Positions 20,463-58,281 of a stretch of 64,000 nucleotides of DNA are shown here, one piece after another. How positions within the stretch are numbered: position 1 is the first letter of the stretch; every line of letters starts with the position of its first letter. The stretch is from positions 310,001 through 374,000 of the forward strand of contig CANNER010000001.1 in NCBI GenBank assembly GCA_947503715.1. Direction: 5' to 3'. The position numbers and the translations under genes were made by a program. The notes under the pieces are model-generated. The model was not told the origin of the DNA and made no database searches. It was given only the letters and a program-made list of their open reading frames with translations. The DNA comes from an uncultured Caulobacterales bacterium (GTDB lineage Bacteria; Pseudomonadota; Alphaproteobacteria; Caulobacterales; Maricaulaceae).

Positions 20463-22133
20463 ATGGCTACCATGACACATTTCCGCACTACACGATTCTG
20501 GCTCCTAACGGGGGCGGCGCTGATGACAGCGGGGACCGTCCATGCGCAATCCAAACCCACGCCGCCTTATGCGTCTGCGCCTACGATGGTGCAGGCTGCG
20601 CCCGGTTTTCCTTCCATTCCGGCGGATCAAATTGCGCGTGATGTGACGGAAGAAATTAATCCCCGCACGGGCCAGCGCGAACTTATCGCCGCGCCTTTTG
20701 ATCCGTTTGAACAGGATCCAACTGTTGCGGCCTCTGTACGGTTGCGGTCTATGGATCAGGCCGTCGCCATTGACGGACAGCTCTTGCGCGATGGTGCGCT
20801 CTTGGAAATGGATATCTATTATAATTCCCCTTCGGACGACCCCTATGACGGACGCGGCTATGGCGATGCGCTATTCCTCAATGGTGAACTCGCGCCCGTC
20901 GTGACACGCGATAGTCGTATTCTGGAATGTTCCAGCCGCGTCGAAAATGTCGTCTATGACCACACGGCCTATTATGGCGGCCCGAGTATCGGGATTTATC
21001 GACCCTATCGTCATTATGCCGGGCATTACGGATTCGCAAATAGCGGGTTCGGCTTTGGCTTCGGATCGCGTGGATATCGGGATCGCGGCTACGGTTTCGG
21101 CTATAGCAGTCGGGGCTATTCACAGCCGCGTTTGCGCAATAGAAACCTAAGACGCGACAATCGTGAATTACGCCGCGAAATCCGTGATCGTGATGACCGC
21201 CAAGACGCCCGCCGTGACCGCGAACGCGCGGAACGGATTAAACGCGATGAAGATCGCCGCAATCTTGGTCGTGTCGACTCCTATAGCGGTCGATCCGGTA
21301 CACGGGGCGGCGCGCAACGCGGTGTAAACCCACCGCGTCGTTTGGAAATGGGCACGCGGACACGTTCTGATCGCGATGCAGTGCGCCGTTCCGAACCCAG
21401 ACAGATAGAGACCAGACGGGCTGAGCCACGTCGTGCCGCGCCCGAACGCGCGGAGCGGAGACAGTCTGAGACAAGACGAAGCGCGCCGAGACGAACTGAG
21501 ACACGACGCGAAACGGCCCCACAGCCGCAACGCGCGGAGCCACGGCGTCAGAGTAATCCGTCGCCACGTCGGGCAGCCCCGCAACGTGCGCAGCCTGCGC
21601 CGCGCAGTTCTACGCCGCCAAAGCGGACACGCTCTGCACCGCCAAAGACGACGCGTTCAACACCCCGTCGGCAGAGTAATCCGGGCAGAACCGTCAGGCG
21701 TCAGCTCGATTTCTTCCCGCGTGATGGATATGGTGGACGAGAGGTCGTGACTTCCCGCTCTGTCGATTGCGCGCGAGAGGAAACGCTGCGCGTGTTCTTA
21801 CCTGCAGATCGTCTGGATGCCGCACGGTTTGATGGTTTGACTGTTCTCGTACTGGATCGTGATGGCGGTGAGACACCCGTCTTTATCCCGCCAAATTATA
21901 TTGAGGGTTTCCGCTTGGCGGCTTCCGGTCAAATCCGTCCACAAGGTGTGAACCCGAACTCCCAAAATGGAACGCTAACGCGCATTCCACAGACGCAAGG
22001 CAACACATACCGCCTGCCTGATACGCAGATCGAATCTGCACCCTGTCCGGTGGGAACGACGCCGCAAGCCGACGGAACCTGTTTGCAAAACGGGACTACA
22101 AATATCAGCCTATCTGGTTATCCGCGGCCCTAA
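20463..22133 (+). CDS. Secreted Arg-rich low-complexity protein
   Basis: The 556-residue protein has a signal peptide ending near V-H-A-Q (residue 29), an ordered N-terminal part to about residue 170, a Gly/Tyr-rich stretch, and then about 200 residues very rich in Arg with Glu, Gln, Pro and Ser (repeats of the type R-R-x-E-P-R-R). The C-terminal 140 residues look folded and end with C-P-V-G-T-T-P-Q-A-D-G-T-C, a motif also found in the small secreted protein at 43253. I do not recognise a family. The strongly basic core could bind nucleic acid, LPS or peptidoglycan, but this is speculation. The next ATG (20472) would also keep the signal peptide. Confidence 0.7.
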   Translation: MATMTHFRTTRFWLLTGAALMTAGTVHAQSKPTPPYASAPTMVQAAPGFPSIPADQIARDVTEEINPRTGQRELIAAPFDPFEQDPTVAASVRLRSMDQAVAIDGQLLRDGALLEMDIYYNSPSDDPYDGRGYGDALFLNGELAPVVTRDSRILECSSRVENVVYDHTAYYGGPSIGIYRPYRHYAGHYGFANSGFGFGFGSRGYRDRGYGFGYSSRGYSQPRLRNRNLRRDNRELRREIRDRDDRQDARRDRERAERIKRDEDRRNLGRVDSYSGRSGTRGGAQRGVNPPRRLEMGTRTRSDRDAVRRSEPRQIETRRAEPRRAAPERAERRQSETRRSAPRRTETRRETAPQPQRAEPRRQSNPSPRRAAPQRAQPAPRSSTPPKRTRSAPPKTTRSTPRRQSNPGRTVRRQLDFFPRDGYGGREVVTSRSVDCAREETLRVFLPADRLDAARFDGLTVLVLDRDGGETPVFIPPNYIEGFRLAASGQIRPQGVNPNSQNGTLTRIPQTQGNTYRLPDTQIESAPCPVGTTPQADGTCLQNGTTNISLSGYPRP

Positions 22134-22150
22134 CGTCCCATATTGAAACA

Positions 22151-22191
22151 CACCCTGTCTGAAATTTGGACAGGGGTGCGAAAATTCGCGT
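22151..22191. promoter_or_regulatory. Dyad repeats upstream of the sigma-54 promoter (candidate enhancer sites)
   Basis: CACCCTGTC / GACAGGGGTG (22151-22178) and GCGAA-aa-TTCGC (22179-22190) are dyads centred about 60-85 bases before the predicted start site. This is the usual place for binding of sigma-54 activators. There is no T run, so the first dyad is not a terminator. A related CCCTGTCA/TGACAGGG dyad forms the terminator downstream. Confidence 0.35.
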
Positions 22192-22219
22192 GAAAAGCGT
22201 CAAAAACGCCCCTGTTCAC

Positions 22220-22236
22220 TTGGCACGCGCATTGCA
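22220..22236 (+). promoter_or_regulatory. Consensus sigma-54 (RpoN) promoter
   Basis: TTGGCACG-N4-TTGCA matches the RpoN consensus at every strongly conserved position, with GG (22222-22223) and GC (22234-22235) 12 bases apart. The predicted transcription start is near 22247. By simple chance such an exact match would be rare in a window of this size. Confidence 0.7.
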
Positions 22237-22246
22237 AAAATAGTTT

Positions 22247-22366
22247 TGAACCCAGGGAGGCATCCCAAAGTTCCCACGTTGCCCGGACCCGGACATTACT
22301 CCCGTCCACCCGGGTGCCCAAAGTCAGAATAAGGCCCTGTCATTTCCCAAAGGTGACAGGGTTTTA
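22247..22366 (+). ncRNA. Putative sigma-54-dependent small RNA
   Basis: The predicted transcript of about 120 bases runs from the sigma-54 promoter to an intrinsic terminator and contains no convincing reading frame. It can form GGGA-ggca-TCCC, a longer hairpin with CCCGG/CCGGG and inner GGAC/GTCC (about 22291-22318), and the terminator hairpin. It could act as a free small RNA or as an attenuated leader for the acyl-CoA synthetase operon that starts at 22440. No known RNA family is recognised. Confidence 0.4.
22335..22366 (+). terminator. Intrinsic terminator upstream of the acyl-CoA synthetase operon
   Basis: A perfect 8-bp stem CCCTGTCA (22335-22342) / TGACAGGG (22354-22361) is followed by TTTTA. 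The preceding coding gene ended about 200 bases earlier, so this terminator more likely ends a separate short transcript. Confidence 0.75.
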
Positions 22367-22439: not shown

Positions 22440-24227
22440 ATGGGCTTTTCATTATCACGCGAGATTAAATATGTGGGCGGATTGCTCCGTATGTTGCGCT
22501 CCGTGAAGGATGTGGACGCAGAATCTAACCACCTCATCGCGGATGAGTTGGAACGCCGCGTCGATGCGTTCGGGACCAATATCGCCTTTATCGAGGGCGA
22601 GCGCGAATGGACCTATGACGATATGGAAACCTATGCCAATCGCGTCGCAGCATGGGCGGCGGCACAGGGCTTGGCTAAGGGCGACACTGTCGCAGTTTTC
22701 GCTCGCAACCGATTGGAATATATTCCGCTTTGGTTTGGACTATCCAAACTCGGCGTCATTCCTGCACTGCTAAATTATCAACTCGCAGGCAAAGCACTGG
22801 CACATTGCGTGAATATTTCCGACGCCGCGCATGTAATCGTCGATGTCGAAATGGCGAAACAATGGTCCGCCGCCAAGAAGCAGGTTAAGGGCGACCCGAA
22901 AGTCTGGGCCGCCTTTGGCGATATTAAGGGCTATGACAGCTTTGACGAGGCGCTGGTTGATCTCGTTCCGAACCGTCCGGCTAAATCCGTGCGGGATGGT
23001 CTCACGGCTGGCGGCATGGCGATGAAGATGTTTACCTCTGGTACCACGGGCATGCCAAAGGCCGCAAAGGTCACGCATGTCCGCGCACAGAATTACATGC
23101 GTGGTATGGGCAAGGGCGCGAAGGCCGGGCCCAGCGATCGCATGATGATGGTCCTGCCCATGTATCATGCCACGGGTGGCTTGGTCGGCAGTGGCGCGAT
23201 GCTGACCTATGGCGGTGCAGTCATTATTATCCCGAAATTTTCGGCCTCAAAATTTTGGGATGATGCCGTAAAATACGGCGCGACAATGTTCACCTATGTC
23301 GGAGAACTCTGCCGCTTCCTCCTCTCGCAACCCGCCAATGAGAATGAGCGGAAGCACAAAATCCAATGGATTATGGGCAATGGCCTTCGCCCTGAAGTCT
23401 GGGGGAGTTTCGTCAGCCGTTTCAACATTCCGCATGTCATCGAATTTTACGGCGCGACCGAGGGCAATGTCAGCCTAATTAATGTCGACGGTCCCGTCGG
23501 CGCAGTGGGTCGGGTGCCGAGCTATCTGGCGTGGAAATTCAATATTGATGTCATTCGCTATGATGTCGAAACCGGACAAAATCCACGCGGGGCGGACGGA
23601 TTCTGTATTCGCGAAGACCTGAATGAGGTCGGCGAAATGATTGGTGAAATCCGCCAAGATGACCCACGTTTCCGCTTTGAAGGTTACGGCACAAAGGAAG
23701 ACACACAGAAGAAAATCCTGCGCGATGTATTCAAAAAAGGTGACGCATGGTTCCGCACGGGCGACCTGATGAAACGGGATGAGGATGGCTATTATTACTT
23801 CATGGACCGCGTCGGTGACACCTTCCGCTGGAAGGCGGAAAATGTGGCGACAGGTGAAGTCGCAGCCGTTCTGTCGACCTTCCCAGGTGTCACACAGGCC
23901 AATGTCTACGGTGTCGAGGTGCCGGGCTATGACGGTCGTGCGGGCATGGCCGCGATCGTGTCCGAGGAAGAACCGGACCTCGAAGCGTTAAAAGCGCATG
24001 TTGAGAAGAACTTGCCGCATTATGCGCGTCCGGTCTTCCTACGATTGTCGAAAGAGTCCGATACGACGAGTACGTTCAAGTTCAAGAAAACGAATCTGGT
24101 CAAGGCCGGTTTTGATCCCGCCAAGATTTCAGACCCGATCTATTTCGCCGATCCGAAATCCGGAACCTATGCGACGGTAGATGCGGATGTTTTCAAGGGC
24201 ATTCACGGCGGGACTGTTCGGCTCTAA
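22440..24227 (+). CDS. FATP-like long-chain acyl-CoA synthetase
   Basis: The 595-residue AMP-forming ligase resembles fatty-acid-transport proteins and FadD6-type very-long-chain synthetases. The P-loop T-S-G-T-T-G-M-P-K spans residues 199-207, E-F-Y-G-A-T-E-G-N follows in the middle, and the FATP-type segment F-R-T-G-D-L-M-K-R-D-E-D-G-Y-Y-Y-F-M-D-R-V-G-D-T-F-R-W-K-split over the hinge lies near residues 437-465. GGGAG precedes the ATG. It heads a four-gene operon in which each gene abuts or overlaps the next. It may activate lipids or steroid acids. Confidence 0.88.
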   Translation: MGFSLSREIKYVGGLLRMLRSVKDVDAESNHLIADELERRVDAFGTNIAFIEGEREWTYDDMETYANRVAAWAAAQGLAKGDTVAVFARNRLEYIPLWFGLSKLGVIPALLNYQLAGKALAHCVNISDAAHVIVDVEMAKQWSAAKKQVKGDPKVWAAFGDIKGYDSFDEALVDLVPNRPAKSVRDGLTAGGMAMKMFTSGTTGMPKAAKVTHVRAQNYMRGMGKGAKAGPSDRMMMVLPMYHATGGLVGSGAMLTYGGAVIIIPKFSASKFWDDAVKYGATMFTYVGELCRFLLSQPANENERKHKIQWIMGNGLRPEVWGSFVSRFNIPHVIEFYGATEGNVSLINVDGPVGAVGRVPSYLAWKFNIDVIRYDVETGQNPRGADGFCIREDLNEVGEMIGEIRQDDPRFRFEGYGTKEDTQKKILRDVFKKGDAWFRTGDLMKRDEDGYYYFMDRVGDTFRWKAENVATGEVAAVLSTFPGVTQANVYGVEVPGYDGRAGMAAIVSEEEPDLEALKAHVEKNLPHYARPVFLRLSKESDTTSTFKFKKTNLVKAGFDPAKISDPIYFADPKSGTYATVDADVFKGIHGGTVRL

Positions 24228-56467: not shown

Positions 56468-57305
56468 TCATTCCGGCCAGCGCTTGAAATGCGGAGATTG
56501 GCAGGGTTTCCGGACGGGCTTTCGGATCAACACCCGCAAGCGTGAGCCAGTCTTCCAGAACCAGATTATTTTGCTCTGCGAGAGACCTGAGGGAACGGCG
56601 CAACATTTTACGGCGCTGGCCAAAGGCGGCTTGTGTAACACGTCCCAATGTTTTTAGATCGGGGAAGGGGGCATCCAGAGGTTCAAGCACGACGACCGCG
56701 CTATCCACTTTCGGCGGCGGCGTGAATGCGCGGGCGGGAACTTCAAAGGCCAGACGGCAATGCGCGACCGATTGGCAGAGGACCGCCAGACGTCCGTAAT
56801 GATTTTCTCCGGGCTGTGCGACAACGCGCTGGGCGACTTCCAATTGGAACATGAGAACCATCTGCTCCCAGAAGATCGGGGAGGCCGTGACCCAATCGAT
56901 CAGCATTTTTGTCCCTACATTATAGGGCAGGTTGGCGACAATTTTTCGCGGCGCAGGAAGGTTCGCCGCAATATCATATTTCAGCGCATCGCCCTGCGCG
57001 ATTTCCAGACGACCTTCCGCCCGATCACCGATCTCTGCGAGGGCCGGGATAAACCGTTGATCCATTTCAATCGCGACGACTTTTGATGCCCCGCGTAGAA
57101 GTAAGGCCCGCGTCAGACCGCCCGGACCGGGACCGATTTCTGCGACTGACACGCCGTCCAACGGTTCAGCCAAACGTGCGATTTTATCCGTCAGGTTCAT
57201 ATCCAGCAGGAAATGCTGACCCAGTTTCTTGTTCGCGCCAAGATCATGTGCGCGCACGGTTTCCGCCAGAGTGGGCAGACCCGCAATCCCGTTCCTATTA
57301 TCCAT
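56457..57305 (-). CDS. ksgA: 16S rRNA (adenine1518/1519-N6) dimethyltransferase
   Basis: This 282-residue SAM-dependent methyltransferase has L-G-Q-H-F-L-L-D (residues 27-34), E-I-G-P-G-P-G-G-L-T (SAM loop), and the N-L-P-Y-N-V motif IV of RNA adenine methylases. It dimethylates two adenines near the 3' end of 16S rRNA. It overlaps pdxA by eight bases and is the last gene of lptF-lptG-surA-pdxA-ksgA. Confidence 0.95.
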   Translation of the reverse strand: MDNRNGIAGLPTLAETVRAHDLGANKKLGQHFLLDMNLTDKIARLAEPLDGVSVAEIGPGPGGLTRALLLRGASKVVAIEMDQRFIPALAEIGDRAEGRLEIAQGDALKYDIAANLPAPRKIVANLPYNVGTKMLIDWVTASPIFWEQMVLMFQLEVAQRVVAQPGENHYGRLAVLCQSVAHCRLAFEVPARAFTPPPKVDSAVVVLEPLDAPFPDLKTLGRVTQAAFGQRRKMLRRSLRSLAEQNNLVLEDWLTLAGVDPKARPETLPISAFQALAGMISA

Positions 57306-58281
57306 AACGATGGGTCGCGATCTCTCTGGCTCTGCGGATGGCCGCGATCAGGCTGTCCGGGCGGGCAATGCCTTTTCCTGCAATATCAAAGGCCGTGCCG
57401 TGATCCGGGCTGGTCCGCACGAAGGGTAGGCCGAGTGTGATATTCACGCCGCCGTGGAAATCCAATGTCTTGACGGGAATTAGGCCCTGATCGTGATACA
57501 TTGCGAGCACGGCGTCATAGCCCTGACGTGCTTCAGCGTGGAAAAGTGTGTCAGCGGGCTGGGCGTCGGTGACGTCATGGCCTTCCCTGCGAAGCTTTTC
57601 TGCTGCCGGATTAATGATCTCAATCTCTTCTCGGCCTAGTGCCCCACCTTCACCCGCATGCGGATTTAGACCGGCTAGGGCGAGGTGCGGATTTGCAATC
57701 CCGAAATCAGTTTTCAGCGCGCCCAACATGACGCGGGCCGTGCGGAGGATGGATTCCTCTGAGACTTGTTCAACCGCGTCCCGAAGCGGAACATGAACTG
57801 TGACAATGCCAACCCGCAAATCCTGTGCGGCTAACATCATGACCGGGCCTTTGGTGTAAGGCGTTTCGTGTCCTTTTCCGAGATGGCCTAGAAATTCAGT
57901 ATGTCCGGGAAACTCAAATCCAGCTTCGTAGAGCAGGTGTTTTGCAATCGGGTTAGTGATGACCGCCGAGGCCTGACCGTTCAGGCAGAGATCAACGGCG
58001 CGTTCAATGCTTTGAATAACGGTGCGGGCATGGGCTTTATCGGGTTGCCCGGGCGTTGCGATGTCGCCCTCAACGGCGAGAACGGGAAGTGTCTCTTCAA
58101 AGATATTTGCAGCCTCTGAAATCGCAGAGATGACCGTATGTGGCGTGTTCGCAAATATCGCGGGCGGTGCGATGACCGCAAAGGCGTGTTCAGAATGCCC
58201 GCGCAAAGCCTCCCAGGCTTTGACCGTTATCTCAGGGCCAATCCCCGCAGGGTCACCCATTGTAAGAGCAAATGGGTGCAT
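57298..58281 (-). CDS. pdxA: 4-hydroxythreonine-4-phosphate dehydrogenase
   Basis: The 327-residue PdxA begins with M-G-D-P-A-G-I-G-P-E-I, has G-H-T-E-F-L near the middle, and has the metal-binding histidines in V-H-V-P-L, A-M-Y-H-D-Q-G and the late D-H-G-T-A-F-D. It works in pyridoxal phosphate synthesis. It follows surA after 11 bases and overlaps ksgA. Confidence 0.95.
   Translation of the reverse strand: MHPFALTMGDPAGIGPEITVKAWEALRGHSEHAFAVIAPPAIFANTPHTVISAISEAANIFEETLPVLAVEGDIATPGQPDKAHARTVIQSIERAVDLCLNGQASAVITNPIAKHLLYEAGFEFPGHTEFLGHLGKGHETPYTKGPVMMLAAQDLRVGIVTVHVPLRDAVEQVSEESILRTARVMLGALKTDFGIANPHLALAGLNPHAGEGGALGREEIEIINPAAEKLRREGHDVTDAQPADTLFHAEARQGYDAVLAMYHDQGLIPVKTLDFHGGVNITLGLPFVRTSPDHGTAFDIAGKGIARPDSLIAAIRRAREIATHRYG

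Follow-up and report, generated by a model that had tools for sequence, protein, structure and literature searches.

A small-RNA gene very probably lies in the 64-kb stretch of DNA analysed here (the window), between a gene for a Gly/Arg-rich protein and one for a long-chain acyl-CoA synthetase. According to sequence comparison, the predicted gene, its sigma-54 promoter, its RNA structure, its terminator and an upstream enhancer motif are conserved, and the RNA, which belongs to a family without Rfam entry, appears to have its own promoter and terminator, independent of its neighbours. We propose that it is a trans-acting, base-pairing small RNA that is sigma-54-dependent and TacA-activated, a proposal which, taken as a whole, we consider moderately probable. 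The features of the locus are listed in Table 1.

Table 1. Features of the small-RNA locus and its neighbours (positions in the window).
Feature	Position	Strand	Basis
Sigma-54 promoter TTGGCACGCGCATTGCA (TTGGCACG-N4-TTGCA)	22220-22236	+	Pattern match; conserved GG-N10-GC
Putative main enhancer-binding site CGTCCCATATTGAAACA	22134-22150		69 bp 5' of -24 element; 19.0 bits
Putative second enhancer site TGTCTGAAATTTGGACA, core of the dyad described in the earlier note	22156-22172		13.7 bits
Predicted small RNA, ~119 nt	22247-22365	+	Start from promoter and end from terminator (both inferred); conserved family
Hairpin 1: GAAC..GGGA GGCA UCCC..GUUC	22248-22273	+	Predicted fold; pair counts, 15 copies
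UUCCCACGU, candidate pairing seed; UUC part in stem 1	22271-22279	+	High conservation within RNA
Hairpin 2, UUACUCCC in loop	22281-22315	+	Arm complementarity kept, 15 RNAs
Intrinsic terminator hairpin, T-rich 3' side	22331-22365	+	z -5.6; own vs swapped arms, 17 RNAs
Upstream gene, 556 aa Gly/Arg-rich protein	20463-22133	+	Conserved C-terminal part
Downstream gene, long-chain acyl-CoA synthetase, separate unit	22440-24227	+	NF006134, 723 bits, cut-off 625

Sigma-54 promoter

An earlier note on this DNA had described a perfect sigma-54 promoter, and the exact consensus TGGCACG-N4-TTGC is indeed present without mismatch at 22220-22236, its single match in the window; with up to two mismatches the pattern is not enriched (23 matches vs 25.3 expected from shuffles). 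The stricter pattern YTGGCACG-N4-TTGCW occurs twice in the whole 3.15-Mb genome and never in the backward control, while the looser YTGGCAY-N5-YTGCW, searched in four genomes, is barely above its control (32 vs 23). The GG-N10-GC spacing is kept in all 17 copies of the RNA promoter found in the genus and in 14 of the 15 loci inspected outside it, which were selected for the promoter because the search model includes it; the fifteenth, L114, looks false. Promoter bases make up nine of the 16 invariant alignment columns of the 17 genus copies. The rpoN gene was found in 37 of 40 genomes, including that of the window; it was unmatched in G005, G009 and G016, of which G005 (78% complete) and G016 (91%) nonetheless carry the RNA.

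A small RNA may be preceded by a sigma-54-type motif that is idle, as with EcpR1 of Sinorhizobium, whose motif was non-functional under the conditions tested, according to the accessible part of PMC4414408; however, one motif is concerned there, whereas promoter, enhancer and RNA are kept together here. In the portion of PMC3616915 that is available, predicted sigma-54 motifs precede 112 start sites of Sinorhizobium, and TacA is named without known targets. These motifs are likewise alphaproteobacterial, and such a motif also stands before the small RNA EcpR1, as far as the available parts of the two sources report (PMC3616915, PMC4414408).

Conservation within the genus

To search for the locus, the N-terminal part of the acyl-CoA synthetase encoded downstream served as anchor. 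The synthetase gene was found in 16 of the 18 genus genomes, including that of the window (not in G009 and G012), and in 15 of these 16 it is preceded by the -24/-12 element, a short RNA and a terminator; the check proposed in the earlier note, the presence of promoter, RNA and terminator in relatives, thus finds all three at the same place in these genomes; five more genera hold members of the family as well. The remaining genome, G017, has the synthetase gene without the RNA upstream, and its upstream gene differs. In G005 and G002 the unit is present twice in full, in tandem and each time with its promoter and terminator, the copies being 274 and 297 bp apart, and the genus holds 17 copies in 15 genomes. 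The covariance model R1, which consists of the promoter and hairpin 1 and was built from 15 of the 17 copies (G006 and G014 omitted), detected no copy in G017 (100% complete), G012 (92%) and G009 (65%). A DNA search of 40 genomes, including that of the window, matched six, all within the genus. G013 is Litorimonas cladophorae, of the family Robiginitomaculaceae.

RNA structure and C-rich motifs

The predicted fold of the RNA from about 22247 consists of hairpin 1, hairpin 2 and the terminator hairpin, the last T run of which is followed by ATCG. The terminator alone is far stabler than shuffled sequences, and the portion before it is no stabler than shuffles (z -0.5), so that the support for hairpins 1 and 2 comes from comparison. 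A simple terminator scan of the window did not return the hairpin at 22331-22365; its stability (z -5.6) and its complementary arms across relatives bear out the terminator that the earlier note had placed after a short structured RNA.

Because the arms differ in length, the arms of each RNA were compared with arms swapped between RNAs, with permutations that take no account of relatedness. The own arms of hairpin 2 reach a mean of -12.9 kcal/mol vs -5.9 when swapped (15 of 17 RNAs, G011 and G007 being omitted for want of the loop anchor, and the anchors having been chosen after the sequences were seen), and those of the terminator reach -22.9 vs -13.9 kcal/mol in all 17; none of 5000 permutations reached the own value in either case. 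The predicted arms of both hairpins vary yet stay complementary. In the alignment of 15 copies used for hairpin 1, where rows G011 and G007 are visibly misaligned, 90% of cells are paired vs 86.3% after shuffling, seven cells are changed on both sides vs 2.5, and the covariation score is 0.255 vs 0.174 (0 of 500 shuffles each), while the number of pairs changed on both sides (three, reached by 118 of 500 shuffles) and that of further pair types (seven, reached by 318 of 500) are not above shuffles.

The transcript was described in the earlier note as lacking a reading frame, and no open reading frame of at least 60 aa crosses it on the plus strand; a 63-aa frame with a TTG start overlaps it on the minus strand (22130-22321). 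One-base length differences between species (CCCAAAG/CCCAAG) would break any frame through hairpin 1.

The stretch UUCCCACGU is among the best conserved of the RNA. The motifs TTCCCAC, CTCCCAC and ACTCCC, a set chosen after the RNAs had been seen, occur 50 times in 31 RNAs (two of the 50 overlapping another), vs 2.7 +- 1.7 in shuffles with a maximum of 10. Thirty of the 50 copies are mostly unpaired in the predicted fold, and the motif is absent from three of the 31 RNAs (G002b, G022 and G068).

Proposed mechanism and target search

In the proposed mechanism, the palindromes at 22134-22172 would be occupied by a TacA-like response regulator, which would activate sigma-54 RNA polymerase, and the transcript would start at about 22247 and end at the terminator, at about 22365. 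The RNA would expose UUCCCACGU and ACUCCC in loops or unpaired stretches; UUCCCACGU and the CUCCC motifs would pair, most likely with Hfq, to target mRNAs at their G-rich translation start regions (GUGGGA/GGGAG) and repress them. The RNA would act in this way as the post-transcriptional arm of a developmental programme (swarmer-to-stalked, c-di-GMP-linked). Pairing with mRNA start regions is a reasonably likely mode of action, which we infer, together with Hfq and the targets, from the motif type only.

The search for ACGTGGGAA near an ATG in four genomes gave 26 matches among those listed, against eight in the control. Four of the 26 are the antisense strand of the RNA itself, and one, by judgement, lies before a convincing start codon, that of a secreted protein (G000:C1:1098213). 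In four close orthologues of this protein, the 100 bp preceding the matched part do not contain its 10-nt match, and the search gave no convincing target.

In addition, AACTTTGGGAA, which is complementary to part of the RNA, was observed just before the ATG in seven of eight loci of a paralogue group, a multigene family of apparently secreted proteins (L162, L168, L169, L154, L155, L166 and L167). Its duplexes with the RNA core of the same genome (-15.5 to -21.3 kcal/mol) lie within the background, for which 48 start regions from the window gave a best value of -27.0 and a median of -14.4 kcal/mol, and the group is a possible target group of the small RNA.

The repetition of the motif, with at least two matches in 20 of the 31 RNAs (overlapping in two of the 20, G073 and G072), would also suit a sponge RNA, in which the UCCCAC motifs serve to soak up an RNA-binding protein or a second small RNA and not to pair with mRNAs. 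CrfA of Caulobacter, formerly taken as an mRNA regulator, is such a sponge, according to the accessible text of PMC12559287. However, the CrfA site is G/A-rich in the same text (PMC12559287), whereas the motif here is C-rich, a type suited to pairing with Shine-Dalgarno sequences, and no partner is known, so that we regard a sponge as unlikely.

Putative enhancer palindrome

Motif finding on the 130 bp upstream of the 17 genus RNA promoters yielded a 17-bp palindrome, TGTTCCAAATTGGAACA, with 271 bits in total vs 141-147 in six shuffled sets. As related promoters are not independent, the matrix was tested on promoters elsewhere: measured against 2000 control windows, all 14 real loci outside the genus exceed the 95% level and 13 of them the 99% level, these levels being, if anything, higher since the windows were stretches of genus genomes, some with the RNA's own promoter. 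L114 fails the control level. The palindrome lies 67-69 bp (12 copies) or 77-82 bp (12 copies) upstream of the -24 element, 24 of 31 in all, in two classes that were set after the numbers had been seen; they are about one helical turn apart, as would be expected if the bound protein has to point towards the polymerase. The second site of the window begins 22 bp after the best one, about two helical turns, and the scores of both (19.0 and 13.7 bits) come from a matrix whose training set included this genome. The RNA promoters of G014 and G006 are without a good palindrome (5.6 and 4.2 bits), and that of G002b is weak (10.8 bits).

The earlier note had pointed to dyads upstream of the promoter as enhancer sites, a role supported by a palindrome that is shared across relatives at preferred distances. 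An outward TTGGnACA pair, previously considered as the enhancer, is superseded by the motif-finding result, and an earlier consensus scan, whose consensus had been picked out visually from the two promoter sets, is not independent evidence.

Candidate activator

Five strong enhancer-binding proteins are encoded in the window's genome, namely TacA-like, LuxO-like, NtrX, RtcR and PspF-like proteins, the listing reaching down to matches of ~1e-20. The contact loop reads GSFTGA in the TacA-like, GAFTGA in the LuxO-like and GAYAGA in the RtcR protein, and is missing in NtrX and the PspF-like protein. In four carriers of the RNA that are each 99% complete (G003, G006, G014 and G015), only TacA-like, NtrX and PspF-like proteins are found among the matches listed, and of these the TacA-like protein alone keeps the contact loop, as GSFTGA. 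RtcR was rejected as activator because it is not among the proteins listed for these four genomes, and PspF-like and NtrX because the GAFTGA loop is missing in the six genomes inspected (G000, G003, G006, G014, G015 and G017). By exclusion and the shared motif, the activator is likely to be the TacA-like response regulator, a name that we presume from domain make-up and resemblance.

Small RNAs transcribed by sigma-54 under LuxO are known from Vibrio, and the RNA could stand under another enhancer-binding protein, above all the LuxO-like one (G000:C1:104981), in a Qrr-like circuit. With the NCBIfam LuxO model this protein reaches 546 bits vs 390 with NtrC; it has GAFTGA and adjoins a hybrid histidine kinase that carries PAS and Hpt domains, and contact loops of a similar kind are present in both it and RtcR of this genome. 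However, it stays under the LuxO cut-off of 800 bits, and G003, G006, G014 and G015 carry the RNA with no LuxO-like protein among the matches listed; we judge such a circuit improbable. Apart from the RNA, the LuxO-like regulator follows directly after the PAS hybrid kinase with receiver and Hpt domains (G000:C1:102500-108500; L045:14-3495), and the pair is possibly a quorum- or stress-sensing circuit in an alphaproteobacterium.

According to the available part of PMC10274813, Caulobacter has four such proteins, two of which, FlbD and TacA, are the only ones with GAFTGA, and TacA drives sigma-54 genes including staR. In Caulobacter, c-di-GMP switches on the ShkA-TacA pathway at the G1-S transition, and this pathway serves as a model for second-messenger timing of development, in the text available from PMC7010744. 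If the proposal is true, this pathway gains an RNA output in relatives of Caulobacter, and TGTTCC-N5-GGAACA would be a candidate TacA binding motif.

The PspF-like protein (G000:C4; L048:3052-4134; also L052, L055, L058, L061 and L064) has its GAFTGA loop replaced (e.g. ESFLDGREDTNG) in the window's genome and in five others inspected. The genes beside it in L048 are, we assume, pspABC-like, and the 630 bp upstream of pspA in this genome hold no sigma-54 site by pattern. These features suggest that psp control may no longer be sigma-54-dependent in the genus.

Spread beyond the genus and independence from neighbouring genes

Among 137 genomes of the family, R1 matched 59 at E <= 1, of which 15 are in the genus and 44, mostly weak, outside it. 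Inspection covered 15 of these 44 genomes, with E up to 0.09; the loci fall in g19 (six), g27 (two), g21 (four), g6 (one), g2 (one) and g7 (one). Fourteen look real and belong to five genera (g19, g27, g6, g21 and g2), while the g7 locus, L114, was rejected for its missing enhancer, different neighbours and poor -12 element. Of 398 genomes sampled across the order, 13 gave a match at E <= 0.02, every one of them from the same family, and among 385 genomes sampled across the class the window's genome was the sole match at E <= 0.005; the stricter filters of both searches lose weak matches. The conserved-core pattern matched six stretches in genome contigs, five of them in Litorimonas or Caulobacterales bins; its occurrence in Acidobacteriaceae bacterium KBS 96 (L020) was taken for chance.

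Outside the genus, 11 of the 14 loci have a homologue of the upstream gene before the RNA. The Gly/Arg-rich protein of the window has a low-complexity middle and matches no Pfam or NCBIfam family at E 0.001. The synthetase gene lies downstream of the RNA in nine of the 14 loci and was not found within ~1.5 kb of it in the other five, which leaves a functional link to the lipid-activating enzyme unsupported. In none of the four g21 loci was the synthetase gene found; the long frame that follows there runs convergently, its C-terminus being alike in all four, and promoter and RNA persist. Since promoter and RNA are kept while the neighbours change, the RNA is an independent unit and not a leader.

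A leader or attenuator of the synthetase mRNA, whose hairpins and terminator control read-through into 22440-24227, would agree with the synthetase gene following immediately after the RNA on the same strand, in the window as in those nine loci; however, the g21 loci, as well as the two genomes with tandem full copies, each having promoter and terminator, argue against it, and we consider it very unlikely. That the locus is not a gene, only a chance promoter and an ordinary terminator, would fit the unremarkable stability of the RNA before the terminator, but is scarcely credible in view of the comparative evidence from conservation, arm complementarity, the C-rich motif and the enhancer.

Comparison with known small RNAs

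At the gathering level, Rfam gives nothing near the RNA and only a tRNA in the window; five permissive matches (E 0.9 to 4.3) are to unrelated families and were rejected. To our knowledge, proven sigma-54-dependent small RNAs are few. The Qrr RNAs of Vibrio are short intergenic RNAs with hairpins and a terminator, present in more than one copy in some species and transcribed from LuxO/sigma-54 promoters with an upstream enhancer. The RNA described here resembles them in its sigma-54 promoter with upstream enhancer, its short intergenic hairpin RNA, its terminator and its more than one copy in some species, but differs from them in its activator, which is most likely TacA-like, in the tandem arrangement of its extra copies at a single locus, and in lineage. 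The comparison with Qrr made in the earlier note thus holds as an analogy of sigma-54 small RNAs, whereas no known Rfam family is matched, and identity was rejected for this reason and because four carriers have no LuxO-like protein among the matches listed.

Among alphaproteobacterial RNAs, the SisA-D/alphaR8 family of Caulobacter shares a C-rich motif of the anti-Shine-Dalgarno type and a terminator with the RNA, and SisA family members pair with translation start regions through a UUUCCUCCCU core, according to the accessible sections of PMC12559287. The Sis promoters share no motif in those sections (PMC12559287), whereas the sigma-54 promoter is the best conserved part here. Identity with alphaR8 was rejected, since the UUUCCUCCCU core is absent from the window's RNA and CCTCCC occurs in one of the 31 RNAs (G006). 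NfeR1 of Sinorhizobium is likewise an alphaproteobacterial small RNA with an anti-Shine-Dalgarno motif. It differs in having a sigma-70 promoter that is activated by LsrB and repressed by NtrC, as given in the available part of PMC10746234.

The TacA-sigma-54 regulon of Caulobacter (staR, spmX) is alike in its sigma factor and probably in its activator family, and the palindrome found here recurs before XRE regulator promoters of several genomes, that of the window's genome excepted; however, its known targets are protein genes, as far as reported in the accessible parts of the sources cited. tacA and shkA are themselves predicted targets of Caulobacter RNAs in the available part of PMC5988900. 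The openly licensed literature searched on Caulobacter or Hyphomonas rpoN and on Litorimonas small RNAs does not, by title or passage, describe this RNA, nor do the available parts of PMC5988900, PMC5590869, PMC7885107 and PMC3616915. Neither a TacA-dependent small RNA nor one described for this lineage was found in that literature, although work elsewhere could exist. We tentatively suggest that TacA/sigma-54 small RNAs, so far only in Robiginitomaculaceae, may be the post-transcriptional arm of the c-di-GMP-timed swarmer-to-stalked switch; by analogy, this would be a Qrr-like logic wired to cell development and not to quorum sensing, which is conceivable at a similarly tentative level.

Other sigma-54 promoters and palindrome sites

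A second recurrent sigma-54 promoter of the genus lies ~40 bp before an XRE regulator gene of 133-137 aa (L041:1828-2288 and other XRE loci). The neighbour upstream of this gene in the two loci looked at, L041 and L198, is presumably N-formylglutamate amidohydrolase-like. The same kind of neighbour is reported for sisA of Caulobacter in the accessible sections of PMC12559287. StaR and CdxA are XRE regulators, according to the available text of PMC10688885, and the regulator is of the StaR/CdxA type, without a choice between the two.

The matrix trained on small-RNA promoters places eight of 13 XRE promoters above the 95% control level and six above the 99% level, the other five being below 95%. 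The XRE promoter of the window's genome is without the palindrome (3.9 bits in one scoring, 1.2 in another), and in G015 the palindrome is 136 bp from the XRE promoter, outside the usual distances. Thirty of the 32 matches of the looser sigma-54 pattern in four genomes were inspected: six have a palindrome above 15 bits, namely all four small-RNA promoters (all members of the training set) and two of four XRE promoters, while the other 24 score at most 5.4 bits, 19 of these overlapping an open frame of at least 600 nt.

A third recurrent promoter class of the sigma-54 type, with no palindrome in the three loci scored (L185, L190 and L192), was observed before genes for small, apparently secreted proteins that start roughly with MVSRIFK (L068, L072, L077, L084, L185, L190 and L192). 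Finally, a second strong palindrome match of the window (57777-57793, 17.0 bits) lies inside the open frame 57298-58281 on the minus strand and is perhaps due to chance.
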